From Deltaproteobacteria bacterium (GTDB taxonomy: Bacteria; Myxococcota_A; UBA796; GCA-2862545), in NCBI GenBank assembly GCA_006226595.1, contig SBGP01000058.1, forward strand, positions 1 through 44,809: 44,809 bases of DNA. Reading direction: 5' to 3'. Under the pieces are notes generated by a model that was not told where the DNA came from, searched no databases, and was given only the letters and a program-made list of their open reading frames with translations. Below, piece by piece: positions 3,374-8,566 of this stretch. The first letter of the stretch is position 1. Every line of letters starts with the position of its first letter. Position numbers and translations under genes: made by a program.

Positions 3374-4456
3374 TCAGGGGAGACGCATCCGCTGCAGAGA
3401 CGCGGCGTTGGCGATGCGCTCCTCGGCGAGGGCGTCGGAGGCCGCGAGGGTCGTGATGCCCGCGGAGGTGGCCTTGTTGAGCACGCGCTTCACGGTATCG
3501 AAGATCCCCGCAGCGTCTTCCATGGCCTTCTCGTGCGGCCAGCCGTTGAGCTCGGCGCTCACGGCCATGAGGCCACCGGCGTTGATCACGTAGTCGGGCG
3601 CGTAGGTGATCTGCTGCTCGGTGAGGAGCACGGAGTCGCGCGCCTCGTCCTCGAGCACGTTGTTCGCGCTGCCAGCGATGATCGGCGCGCGGATCGAGCC
3701 GATGTTCCGCTCGTGGACCACGCCACCGATGGCGCACGGAGCGAGCACGTCGCACTCGGTCGCCCAGAAGTCCTTGCCGTCGACGACCTGGCCGCCGAAG
3801 GACTCCATCGCACGCGCGATGTTGCGGTCGTTGACGTCGCTGTAGACCAGCTTGGCGCCCCCCTCGTGGAGGTGACGCGCGAGCTGGAAGCCCACGGAAC
3901 CCACGCCCTGGATGGCGATGGTGCGGCCGCGAACGTCGGAGCTGCCGTACACGACCTCGAGGCAGGCTCGAACGCCCTGGAACACGCCAAACGCGGTGGA
4001 CGGCCCGGGATCCCCGCTACCGCCGATGTGCTTGGACACGCCGGTCACCCACTCCGTCTCGCGACGGATGGTGTTCATGTCGTGCTCGTTCGTGTTCATG
4101 TCCTCGGCGGTGATGTACCGGCCGCCGAGCGACGCGACGTGGCGACCGAACGCCCGCATCATCGCGTCGGTCTTCGTCGCAGGGTCGCCCATGATCACGG
4201 CCTTGCCGCCGCCGAGGTCGAGGCCGGCCACCGCGGCCTTGTAGGTCATGCCGCGGGACAGGCGCAGCACGTCCTTGAGTGCATCGGCTTCGGACCCGTA
4301 GTCGTAGAAACGACAGCCGCCGAGCGCGGGCCCGAGCGTGGTGTCGTGGATCGCGATGATCGCCTTGAGCCCGAGCTCCTTGTTGTGGCAGTACACCACC
4401 TGCTCGTGATCGAGCTCGTGCATCCAGGCGAACGGCTCTGCGACGGTCGAGTCCAT
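3374..4456 (-). CDS. leucine/valine-type amino acid dehydrogenase
   Basis: A 360-aa member of the Glu/Leu/Phe/Val dehydrogenase family. GPALGGCRFYDYG is the substrate-site glycine loop, GLDLGGGKAVI carries the catalytic lysine, and a Rossmann fold (AIQGVGSVGFQLARHL) binds NAD. Length and the motifs HDTTLGPALGG and NAGGLMAVSAEL fit leucine or branched-chain dehydrogenase better than glutamate dehydrogenase. It would reversibly deaminate branched-chain amino acids to 2-oxo acids. I chose the ATG at 4456, preceded by GGAG, over an ATG at 4501 (15 residues longer), which has a poor ribosome site. An inverted repeat lies 53 bp upstream. It probably leads the operon with the stress protein and ScpAB. 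Valine or phenylalanine specificity remains possible. Confidence 0.92.
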   Translation of the reverse strand: MDSTVAEPFAWMHELDHEQVVYCHNKELGLKAIIAIHDTTLGPALGGCRFYDYGSEADALKDVLRLSRGMTYKAAVAGLDLGGGKAVIMGDPATKTDAMMRAFGRHVASLGGRYITAEDMNTNEHDMNTIRRETEWVTGVSKHIGGSGDPGPSTAFGVFQGVRACLEVVYGSSDVRGRTIAIQGVGSVGFQLARHLHEGGAKLVYSDVNDRNIARAMESFGGQVVDGKDFWATECDVLAPCAIGGVVHERNIGSIRAPIIAGSANNVLEDEARDSVLLTEQQITYAPDYVINAGGLMAVSAELNGWPHEKAMEDAAGIFDTVKRVLNKATSAGITTLAASDALAEERIANAASLQRMRLP

Positions 4457-4508
4457 GGGCACTCCATCGCCCCGAGGGGCGCGTCGAAGGGGAAGACGCA
4501 TCCGTATC

Positions 4509-4574: not shown

Positions 4575-5423
4575 TCAGCCGTCCATTGGGTCGAGCGGAC
4601 CGACGAGTCCGTGCCGCAGCCACCGTTCCGGAGCCCCGTCACACACGGCCTCGACCGCGCAGTGACGGCAGGCATCCTCCTTGGCGAAGCGGACGACGTC
4701 GGGGAAGAACAGCAGCGCATCGGCGAGCTGGTGCTCGGCGTCGACGTACCATCGGTTCTGGCTGCGCCACAGCCGCTCGGCACCCCCGAGGACACAGGCG
4801 GGGAGCCCCTTCACGCCGGTCGCCAGCCCCGAGGCATCCAGGACTGGGAGCATCGCGTGGACGGCAGCCGCCGCCTCCGTCGCCGCGGGAGGCACGCCTG
4901 CCGCGCCCCCCGGGAACGGCCAGGTGAGCACGACCCGGCGGGGCTTCGCGCGGATCACGGCCTCGGCCACCGCCTCGGGAGCGTCGAGCACGGCGCGCAC
5001 CAGTGGAATCACGGCGGTCACCGCGACGGTGTCGCTCGGGGCGAGGCGCGATGCCGCGTCCACGTCGGGCAGCCGCACGGCCACGGCGTCCGCGCCCATC
5101 GCTGCAGCGCTCGGCACCTCGTCGGGGCCGGCGTGAACCGTGATCCAGTCCACCCCCCAGCCACGGGCCTCGGCCAGGATCTGTGGCAGCTCCGCCCGAC
5201 TCGCGAGCGCGACGCCAGAGAGGACCAGCGCGGTGCACGGGCGCGTACGCGGTCCCCGCATGCCCACGGTGAAGTGGCGCACGTTGGCGTGGAGTTCCTC
5301 CGGACTCAGGCTGCGCTGCGGGACCGGAGCCCCGGCGGCCACACGACCCGGAAACTGCTGCGTCACACGGATCTGCACCGTCGTCGGCGTCGCCACCGCA
5401 CCCGCGCGGGTGAAGCTCAGCAT
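4575..5423 (-). CDS. radical-SAM-like protein lacking the CX3CX2C cluster motif
   Basis: This 282-aa protein has the shape of a radical SAM enzyme with the active cluster removed. A beta strand (TTVQIRVT, residues 14-21) is followed where CX3CX2C should be by a Cys-free stretch (21-50). Then comes a strand/helix resembling the GGEP region (ALVLSGVALASRAELPQIL, 65-83), TIM-barrel-like repeats, and GVKGLPACVLGG (203-214). The C terminus CRHCAVEAVCDGAPERWLRH (252-271) closely resembles the auxiliary-cluster tail of radical SAM proteins (Cys252, 255, 261). I infer a catalytically altered or structural relative that may keep a C-terminal Fe-S site. The start is the ATG at 5423, overlapping the stop of the upstream 171-aa gene by 7 nt. 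Function unknown. Confidence 0.7.
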   Translation of the reverse strand: MLSFTRAGAVATPTTVQIRVTQQFPGRVAAGAPVPQRSLSPEELHANVRHFTVGMRGPRTRPCTALVLSGVALASRAELPQILAEARGWGVDWITVHAGPDEVPSAAAMGADAVAVRLPDVDAASRLAPSDTVAVTAVIPLVRAVLDAPEAVAEAVIRAKPRRVVLTWPFPGGAAGVPPAATEAAAAVHAMLPVLDASGLATGVKGLPACVLGGAERLWRSQNRWYVDAEHQLADALLFFPDVVRFAKEDACRHCAVEAVCDGAPERWLRHGLVGPLDPMDG

Positions 5424-5932
5424 GCGCCGAAGACCACCGAGGTCGCGCCGTCGAGCTCCCACAGGACCAGGAAGTCCGCGAGCGGCAGGGTGCGCTCCTC
5501 TTCGACGTCGTCGAAGGGTTCGGGATCGAGCAACAGGACCTCGTCCGTCACCCGCTCGACGATCACCCACGTCGGCTGCACCACGTCGTGGTGGCGCTCG
5601 TAGATCCGGCACAGCCATGGCGTGTTGCGCGCGAACTGGTAGCGACGGATGGTCCGCACGGCCTTGTCACGGTCGGCATGCCCCATGCCGCCGTGGACCT
5701 CCTCGCCGTATTGCGCCTGGGCGAACGCGAGCACCGAGCCCGGATCACTGCCGCCGACAGCTGCGCGAACCGCGTCGACGAGCGCGGTGCCACTGGCCTC
5801 GTCGCACACGCCCTGCACGAGCCCTGCGAGGTCCTCGTCCACGGGAAGAGCGGCTCGACGGTGGAGCAACACCATCCACGCTGAGAGGGTCACTGCGAGG
5901 TTGCCATCCTCGCGAAGCGGTCGCGCACTCAT
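5417..5932 (-). CDS. conserved-looking protein of unknown function, partner of the radical-SAM-like gene
   Basis: A 171-aa soluble protein with no signal peptide. The N-terminal half looks helical (LAVTLSAWMVLLHRR; DEDLAGLVQGVCDEASG), the C-terminal half beta-rich (TWVIVERVTDEVLLLDPEPF and the strand-like ending ATSVVFGAC). The segment W-V-I-V-E...D-E-V-L-L-L-D-P faintly recalls the HxVV...LDP portion of papain/C39-like folds, but I do not see a convincing catalytic Cys/His pair, so I assign no function. Three cysteines are present, one being the last residue. The ATG follows a strong GGAGG site. The 7-nt overlap with the downstream radical-SAM-like gene argues that the two products work together. 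Confidence 0.75.
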   Translation of the reverse strand: MSARPLREDGNLAVTLSAWMVLLHRRAALPVDEDLAGLVQGVCDEASGTALVDAVRAAVGGSDPGSVLAFAQAQYGEEVHGGMGHADRDKAVRTIRRYQFARNTPWLCRIYERHHDVVQPTWVIVERVTDEVLLLDPEPFDDVEEERTLPLADFLVLWELDGATSVVFGAC

Positions 5933-5977
5933 CTCGCCTCCTGCGTCCTGCGATGCGGCCGGATTATACGGAGGCCG

Positions 5978-8566
5978 ATGCGCATCCTTCCCCTACTCCT
6001 GCTCGCGTGCACCGGCTCGGAACCGGCCCCACCCGCGATCCCCGACGTTCCGCGCCTGCCGATCGACCAGACCGGCGCCGGCCCGTTGATCCGCCTCGAG
6101 CCGGAGGACGCGGTGCTCGCGCTGCCCGAGGGCGAGAGCGCGGACGTGCAGACAGCGTTCACGCTGACCGACTTCGCGCCCGACGGCGGCTTCGAGGGCT
6201 GCCTGTATGCGGCGGCGCCCTTCGCGATGAGCCGTGCCCAGGAGCGCGCGCTGCCCGATGGCATCGAGGTGCTCGTCGATGGCGAGCCCGTGCCGTATCA
6301 GCCCTGGAGCCACACGCCGGAGAAGGGTTGGCGCATTGCCCACGGGGCCCTGCACCTCACCGGCTTCGCGAAGATCGACAAGGTGGAGCTGAGCTACCCG
6401 AAGCTCGCGCGTCGCGCCGACCGCTACCAGCCGTCGCAGGCCGGTCTCACACCCGAGGCCTTCGTGCGCATGCGCTACCAGGCTGGGGTCGTCACCCGGC
6501 GGGGTCTGCTGCTGCCCGCACCCGCAACCGCCGCATGGCCGTTGACCGCGGCCAAGGGTCAACGCTTCGAAGCCGCCGTCGCACTCGCCGTGCCCCCCGG
6601 CCTCGAGTCCGCCTCCGACGGTGTGACCGCCGTGCTCCGCTTCGTGGAGGGCGACAAGGTCACCGAGCTCGACCGGCGCGAGGTAGAGCCCTCGAGCTGG
6701 CTGGGCAAGCGCCTCGTCGAGCTGGACGTGACCCGCGACGACCCGTTCGTCGATTGGGTGGTGCCCCTCGACAAGATCGCGGGCCGAAGCGGCACCCTCG
6801 AGATCGTCTCCGAAGTACGCGGCAGCGCGGCCCAGGACTACCTGTTCGTCGCGCATCCCGAGGTCGCCTCGACGCCAACGGCGCCACCTCGGCACGTGAT
6901 CGTGATCGGCCTCGACACCACGCGTCCCGACCACATGGGCGCGTACGGCTATCCGCGGCCGACGACCCCCGAACTCGACGCCTTCGCCGAGACCGCCACC
7001 GTGTTCGACGCGGCCTGGACCCCTGCCCCGCGCACGCGCCCGAGCTTCCGATCGGCGACGACGGGCCGCTACCCGCTGACCGCCGTCGGCGCGACGAACA
7101 TCGGCGAGGTCTTCCAGGATCACGGCTTCGCGACCGCGGGCATCGTGGCCAACGTGCACCTCGCACCGCGCTTCGACTTCGACCACGGCTTCGACATGTG
7201 GCGCCTCGACCCGAAGGCCATCGGCGAGGAGCAGGTCGATCAGGCACTCGCGTGGCTCGAGGCCCACCGCCACCGCGACGCCTACCTGTTCCTGCACATG
7301 ATGGACCCGCACCTGTTCTACAAGCCGCCCGGCGAGTTCGCGGACAAGTTCGTCGACCACCCGGACCCGGAGCTCCCGCCGGAGTTCAACCGGTGGACCG
7401 TGTCGCGCATGGAGCGCAGCGGCGAGCTCACCGATCAGCGCAAGGCCCACATCATCGGCCTGTACGACGGCGAGATGGGCTACCTCTCGTCGCAGCTCGG
7501 GCGCTTCTTCGAGAAGCTCGACGCCCTCGGGCCCCAGACGCTGGTCGTCGTCCACTCCGATCACGGCGAAGAGCTGTGGGAACACGGCGGCTTCGAGCAC
7601 AACCACGCGCTGTACGACGACGTGACCCGGGCCGTGCTCATGGTCCGCCCGCCGCACGGCGAGACACCGACGCCGCGCGCCGACGTGCCGGCCACCCTCG
7701 CCGACATCGCACCGACCCTGTACGACTACGTCGGCTTCGAGGACACGCCGGAGACCGACGGCGTCAGCCTCAAGCCCTTCGTCGAGGGCGCCGAGGCCGG
7801 CGAGCTCGCCCACCGCCCCATCGGCACGGCGCACCTGATGTACGAGCGCGAGCAGTGGGGCGTCGTCGTCGATGGCCACAAGTACATCGTGCGCACCGCC
7901 GATGGCGAGGAGGAGCTCTACGACCTCGCCGAGGACCCCGAAGAGAAGAAGAACCTCGCCGGCACCGTCGACATGGCGCCGTACCGCGCCGCGCTGTCCG
8001 CGGCCCATCTCGACATGCCCGTCGGCGAGGGATGGCGGCTCGCGTTCATCCTCACCGAGCCGATGACGGTGAAGCTGCCTGCGCCCGCCATCCGGGCGGG
8101 CCTCTTCGACCCCGAGGCCATGCGCCGGGGTCGAGCGAACCTCGCGTGGGGCGAGAAGCCCGAAGCCACACCGGAGGACGTCGCCAAGGTCTGGCTCTCG
8201 GAGGACGGACGCCGACTGCACATCGAGCCAGCCCGCAAGGGACGCGGCACCGCGTGGGTGATGTTCGACGAGGCGCAGCCGACTCGAAAGGTCGAGATGC
8301 TGCGCAACAGCCGCGTTCAGCGCGTGTTCCACCATGACGACCGCTCGACCTGGGAGACACCCGGGCGCGAGCACGTCATCGTTCGCGCTGGCCCGGTGTT
8401 CGACACGCCCATCGGTGAAGCCGCACGCATCGCCTCGCTCAAGGAGCGCGAAGCCAGCGGCTCGGACCTCGAGATGCTCAACGCCCTCGGCTACATCCAC
8501 GACGAGGGCGACGAGGAAGAGGAGAGCCCGAAGGCCCCGCCGACGCCGGTCACTCCGAAGAAGTGA
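5978..8566 (+). CDS. sulfatase/alkaline-phosphatase-fold lipoprotein
   Basis: An 862-aa protein with a very short lipoprotein signal (MRILPLLLLAC, lipidated Cys11; +2 is Thr, so outer-membrane sorting is expected). Residues 20-300 form a beta-rich domain I do not recognise. The sulfatase fold begins at HVIVIGLDTTRPDHMGAYGY (306-325), which carries a metal-binding Asp, and includes VVVHSDHGEELWEHGGFEH, the second metal cluster. Where sulfatases have the CxPxR formylglycine motif this protein has TRPSF (353-357): no Cys and no Arg. The nucleophile is thus probably Thr353, as in phosphatase- or phosphotransferase-like relatives, and the substrate is unknown. The 200 C-terminal residues end in a disordered Glu/Pro tail. 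Its 3' end overlaps the convergent P-loop gene by 17 bp. Confidence 0.9.
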   Translation: MRILPLLLLACTGSEPAPPAIPDVPRLPIDQTGAGPLIRLEPEDAVLALPEGESADVQTAFTLTDFAPDGGFEGCLYAAAPFAMSRAQERALPDGIEVLVDGEPVPYQPWSHTPEKGWRIAHGALHLTGFAKIDKVELSYPKLARRADRYQPSQAGLTPEAFVRMRYQAGVVTRRGLLLPAPATAAWPLTAAKGQRFEAAVALAVPPGLESASDGVTAVLRFVEGDKVTELDRREVEPSSWLGKRLVELDVTRDDPFVDWVVPLDKIAGRSGTLEIVSEVRGSAAQDYLFVAHPEVASTPTAPPRHVIVIGLDTTRPDHMGAYGYPRPTTPELDAFAETATVFDAAWTPAPRTRPSFRSATTGRYPLTAVGATNIGEVFQDHGFATAGIVANVHLAPRFDFDHGFDMWRLDPKAIGEEQVDQALAWLEAHRHRDAYLFLHMMDPHLFYKPPGEFADKFVDHPDPELPPEFNRWTVSRMERSGELTDQRKAHIIGLYDGEMGYLSSQLGRFFEKLDALGPQTLVVVHSDHGEELWEHGGFEHNHALYDDVTRAVLMVRPPHGETPTPRADVPATLADIAPTLYDYVGFEDTPETDGVSLKPFVEGAEAGELAHRPIGTAHLMYEREQWGVVVDGHKYIVRTADGEEELYDLAEDPEEKKNLAGTVDMAPYRAALSAAHLDMPVGEGWRLAFILTEPMTVKLPAPAIRAGLFDPEAMRRGRANLAWGEKPEATPEDVAKVWLSEDGRRLHIEPARKGRGTAWVMFDEAQPTRKVEMLRNSRVQRVFHHDDRSTWETPGREHVIVRAGPVFDTPIGEAARIASLKEREASGSDLEMLNALGYIHDEGDEEEESPKAPPTPVTPKK

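Follow-up and report, generated by a model that had tools for sequence, protein, structure and literature searches.

A pseudo-radical-SAM protein family with a lost SAM cluster and an invariant C-terminal four-cysteine site

Background

A 282-aa protein with the look of a radical SAM barrel and no cysteines for the SAM-binding cluster raises three questions: whether it truly descends from radical SAM proteins, whether it is still a functional protein, and whether it works with the 171-aa protein encoded next to it. The gene lies in a contig of 44,809 nt (the window), taken from a 7.2-Mb draft genome. The larger protein, here P1, is encoded at 4575–5423 on the reverse strand, with the barrel at approximately residues 14–212 and a C-terminal metal-site tail at approximately 205–264. 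The 171-aa protein, P2, is encoded directly upstream on the same strand (5417–5932). Both open frames and their 7-nt overlap (5417–5423, in ATGCTGA), as described in an earlier note on this DNA, were confirmed. An alternative upstream ATG extends the P1 frame to 347 aa; the 282-aa start is where the members of the P1 family begin.

What the auxiliary Fe-S clusters do in radical SAM enzymes has been called largely enigmatic (PMC10470005), and a family that carries such a site alone, maintained across an order by selection, would allow the site's own role to be studied without radical chemistry.

Results

Descent from radical SAM proteins

Neither P1 nor P2 was named by any family in Pfam or NCBIfam, and single-sequence searches of Pfam, NCBIfam and PDB with P1 returned nothing useful. 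A profile was built from 28 P1 members. Against PDB it gave weak matches to unrelated folds (best E 0.0013, a region of CMP-KDO synthetase); across the phylum it recovered canonical CX3CX2C proteins, with E-values down to 3e-16 per genome. The motif was present in 18/18 canonical proteins extracted, and all three that were scanned matched PF04055 at 2e-18 or better. The profile matched the canonical proteins with E-values of 4e-18 to 7e-11, and reversed-sequence controls did not match it. Profile-profile comparison with hhalign against 15 canonical proteins gave a probability of 99.4% (E=2.4e-21) over 242 columns with all four C-terminal cysteines aligned, whereas the profile of the unrelated P2, used as a control, reached 0.1%. 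Among NCBIfam families, HxsC4 was hit by the largest number of members (NF038332; 11/28, best E 5e-6), followed by HxsC (TIGR03977); the members fell far under the cut-offs of HxsC and HxsC4 (500 and 268 bits).

The structure of P1 was modelled with AlphaFold2 from 5 sequences (mean pLDDT 68, barrel mostly 80–95) and showed strands alternating with helices, as in a partial barrel of the radical SAM type. Structural comparison with VIA-align placed radical SAM proteins in all of the best 18 rows (Z 13.2 to 10.8; viperin, SkfB, PqqE, SuiB and NifB first) and other TIM barrels lower, at Z 10.7 and below. Ranked solely by Foldseek E-value, radical SAM entries tied with homocitrate synthase and other TIM barrels, so the structural check favoured radical SAM by one measure and left the folds unseparated by the other, and it is the sequence evidence that decides the question of descent. 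P1 does derive from radical SAM proteins, as the earlier note had proposed, on the agreement of profile-profile homology, profile searches, NCBIfam matches and fold comparison. The ancestor would have been a small member of the HxsC4/HxsC-like group of radical SAM proteins, its C-terminal site being twitch-like, and the descent would have occurred once.

Loss of the SAM cluster and of the GGEP motif

In the combined alignment the canonical cluster loop ACNNNCVHC aligned without gaps to QFPGRVAAG of P1. Each of the three cysteines can thus be followed by column, and in the family they became mostly F/Y24, V/I28 and G31. In the P1 of the window the CX3CX2C positions are F24, V28 and G31, and none of the 40 P1 sequences covering the region has a cysteine at any of the three; two members carry unrelated cysteines nearby. 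The absence of the cluster cysteines, first noticed in this single protein, is thus a property of the family. The loop that replaced them (residues 20–36, 5316–5366, reverse strand), delimited by this gapless alignment and its column counts, is itself well conserved as Y/F-P-G-R-V/I-x-A-G-A-P, or in extended form PGRVxAGAPxPxR. At the GGEP position the family has SGVxx (SGVALA in the window) in place of the motif; this degenerate region and the GLPAC segment (residues 206–210) are both present as first described. A protein of this kind would not cleave SAM.

The retained four-cysteine site

C210, C252, C255 and C261 were identical in 41/41 P1 homologues and aligned with the invariant C232, C279, C282 and C288 of the canonical set. 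Three of them lie in CX2CX5CDG (residues 252–263, 4635–4670, reverse strand), a putative metal site that aligns with the canonical CX2CX5CEG. C210, a candidate for the fourth ligand, belongs to KGLPAC (residues 205–210, 4794–4811, reverse strand; K205, G206, C210) and aligns with the invariant cysteine of (I/V)PxC in the canonical proteins. The earlier description of an auxiliary-like tail therefore stood as to its retention, and its count of three cysteines was one short, the fourth being that of GLPAC. The SPASM pattern CX2CX5CX3C was not found: P1 has CX2CX5CDG, with P265 and no cysteine at the +4 position. In twitch domains the barrel is extended at its C-terminus, and this extension holds a single auxiliary cluster (PMC10470005). 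On its motifs, the P1 site is assigned as a twitch-like single auxiliary-cluster site with four conserved ligand candidates, and it most likely holds a [4Fe-4S] cluster.

Newly conserved residues and a putative pocket

Conservation in P1 is not restricted to what was inherited. An almost invariant new segment, NRWYVDAEH, occupies residues 223–231 (4731–4757, reverse strand), with N223, R224 and D228 identical in 41/41 sequences, as are R253 and G206; Q17, R19, R59 and H97 were identical in all 40 sequences reaching their region. The form NRWYVDADHQ and an N-terminus of M-x-x-W/F-T-x-x-G-A-V are likewise new conserved features of the family.

TIM barrels carry their active sites at the C-terminal ends of the strands. 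Of 18 barrel positions conserved at ≥95%, eight lay within 2 residues of strand C-ends (p=0.005, post hoc test) and one at the N-ends. Polar residues are conserved at the barrel mouth, which favours a ligand pocket rather than a mere scaffold. The former SAM/substrate end of the barrel would have been rebuilt with the conserved Q17, R19, R59, S69, H97 and K205, with R27 and N223/R224/D228 elsewhere; the model has pLDDT <50 across the tail (residues 214–268), which covers both the metal-site geometry and the placement of N223–D228. Such a pocket would probably bind a small, likely anionic ligand beside the metal site.

Distribution and selection

By profile search P1 was present in 54/63 genomes of its own order, and in 26/27 of the good ones; single-sequence search found it in 51/58 relatives. 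It is nearly always single-copy in the 63 genomes, each of the double matches in G035, G050 and G057 consisting of separate parts of the protein on separate contigs. Eight other genomes of the class, and the remainder of the phylum as sampled, gave no full-length match of comparable strength. Pairs at 74–94% identity gave dN/dS of 0.12–0.25, that is, purifying selection. In the tree P1 formed one clade (support 100/100) on a long stem, so that a single loss of the cluster is enough as an explanation. P1 is not a decaying copy.

Total loss of P1 was considered for one genome (G017) and rejected, as a highly diverged homologue was found near its dehydrogenase gene (L173:3245-4114, reverse strand). 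Most of the barrel of this very eroded protein has diverged; it retains GPPAC and the cysteines of CX2CX5C.

P2 and its association with P1

P2 was found directly upstream of P1 in 14/16 loci of the host's own family (spacing -7 to 20 nt in 13 of them and 347 nt in the other). Outside that family it was near P1 in G047 and G054, both of a second family; in G028 the distance is 2.9 kb. In most other families P1 has no adjacent P2, which lies elsewhere or was not found. P1 was present and P2 not found in G002 and G019, and G018 has a natural P1-minus locus (L174:4600-5400) in which P2 is followed after ~94 bp by the dehydrogenase gene. Within the sampled phylum both proteins were confined to the same order. 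Since P2 is elsewhere or not found in many genomes, and each gene occurs without the other in the genomes named, the pair is a frequent arrangement and not an obligate unit. The dedicated partnership suggested for P2 is thus borne out only in part: it fits the host's own family and is not kept across most other families of the order. Where adjacent, the two are probably co-translated; P2 would be an accessory to P1 in this family and dispensable elsewhere.

The P2 model had a mean pLDDT of 54.7, and Foldseek returned no match under E 1.5. A by-eye impression of a cysteine-peptidase-like domain was dropped, with no sequence match in Pfam, NCBIfam or PDB and a poor model.

Gene neighbourhood

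Downstream of P1, the gene most constantly present by synteny is a Glu/Leu/Phe/Val dehydrogenase gene (3374–4501, reverse strand; PF02812/PF00208). The neighbours are mostly housekeeping genes that differ between families, and the neighbourhood was considered uninformative as a clue to function.

On the other side, a divergent sulfatase-fold gene (5978–8566, forward strand; PF00884) is a recurrent neighbour of P2 and P1. It starts 45 bp from the P2 start (5933–5977 lying between), and this divergent layout turns up in several of the order's families, which suggests a shared control region. Its product has a putative lipoprotein start (LLLLAC) and, at the nucleophile position of C/S-x-P-x-R, a threonine (TRPSFR) that is conserved in relatives; judged by this motif it is probably no formylglycine sulfatase and perhaps a Thr-nucleophile transferase. 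That P1 might be the maturase (anSME) of the divergent sulfatase was rejected as a main reading on three grounds: this threonine is present in the neighbouring sulfatase-fold proteins, no anSME model was among the listed matches of P1, and many P1 loci have no sulfatase.

Elsewhere in the order, many radical SAM genes (HxsC4-like and others) lie close together on single contigs (G035:C63, G002:C16, G011:C48, G027:C489 and G004:C93), which are possibly large biosynthetic clusters.

Discussion

The cluster cysteines have been lost, but the four-cysteine site and a new putative pocket are kept, so P1 probably does a different job from its relatives. We consider it an ancient pseudo-radical-SAM protein that has kept one Fe-S-like site, rebuilt the end of the barrel for a ligand and taken a non-radical role, with a probability of roughly 0.6. 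Its role, in some core process, would be that of a non-radical enzyme, sensor or Fe-S binding protein. A more specific version is offered tentatively, at well below even odds: an order-wide core protein in which the radical SAM barrel was turned into a novel type of Fe-S-dependent, SAM-independent enzyme or sensor, the new loop replacing the radical-generating cluster and the auxiliary cluster alone being functional.

The nature of the metal bears on this most directly. Four invariant cysteines fit zinc as well as Fe-S and no Fe-S assembly or redox gene adjoins P1, and it is conceivable, if unlikely, that the cysteines hold a structural zinc in a redox-silent ligand-binding or regulatory protein. 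Against this, the canonical radical SAM relatives have cysteines at the aligned positions, and in twitch/SPASM proteins C-terminal sites of this kind carry auxiliary clusters (PMC10470005). An Fe-S site could also serve another enzyme: PapB was proposed to pass electrons between molecules by way of an auxiliary cluster (PMC10470005) and the host genome has 26 radical SAM matches, among which P1 might find a true radical SAM enzyme encoded elsewhere, as its electron-transfer or allosteric partner acting via the auxiliary cluster only. We regard this as rather improbable, given that no radical SAM gene is conserved next to P1 and that the new barrel-mouth residues suggest a ligand of its own.

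An obligate two-component complex, with P2 supplying the missing function, would fit the near-constant, mostly tight spacing in the host's own family, the proximity in G047, G054 and G028 and the confinement of both genes to one order; it is nonetheless very unlikely, with P2 elsewhere or missing in most other families, P1 without P2 in two genomes and P2 kept directly before the dehydrogenase gene in G018, where P1 is absent. Least probable by far is that P1 is a radical SAM pseudogene in decay. Every SAM-binding motif is indeed gone, but the order-wide conservation, the low dN/dS, the residues invariant in 41/41 sequences and the newly conserved loop already contradict such decay.

Comparison with known systems

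P1 is best read as a pseudo-radical-SAM family new to Pfam and NCBIfam, and would be a well-documented radical SAM pseudoenzyme of traceable origin. A search of open literature, in which most subscription journals are absent, turned up no paper describing radical SAM pseudoenzymes; the sole precedent found is a family name, TIGR04347. By that name alone, the pseudo-SAM/SPASM family (the name suggests haloarchaea) is related to radical SAM proteins and has no SAM cluster; it had no match at E≤1 in the 28 P1 members, and P1, unlike a family named SPASM, lacks the fourth cysteine of CX2CX5CX3C. The predicted barrel aligns with the structures of viperin, SkfB, PqqE and NifB (Z 13.2 to 10.8), although at only 8–13% identity, and all four have the SAM cluster that P1 lacks. 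With twitch-domain radical SAM enzymes P1 shares one C-terminal auxiliary-cluster site, putative in P1, and differs from them in having no SAM-binding cluster. Closest are HxsC4 and HxsC (NF038332, TIGR03977): the barrel is of common origin and the HxsC4-like relatives aligned here have the same (I/L)PxC followed by CX2CX5C(D/E)G, whereas P1 is without CX3CX2C and GGEP.
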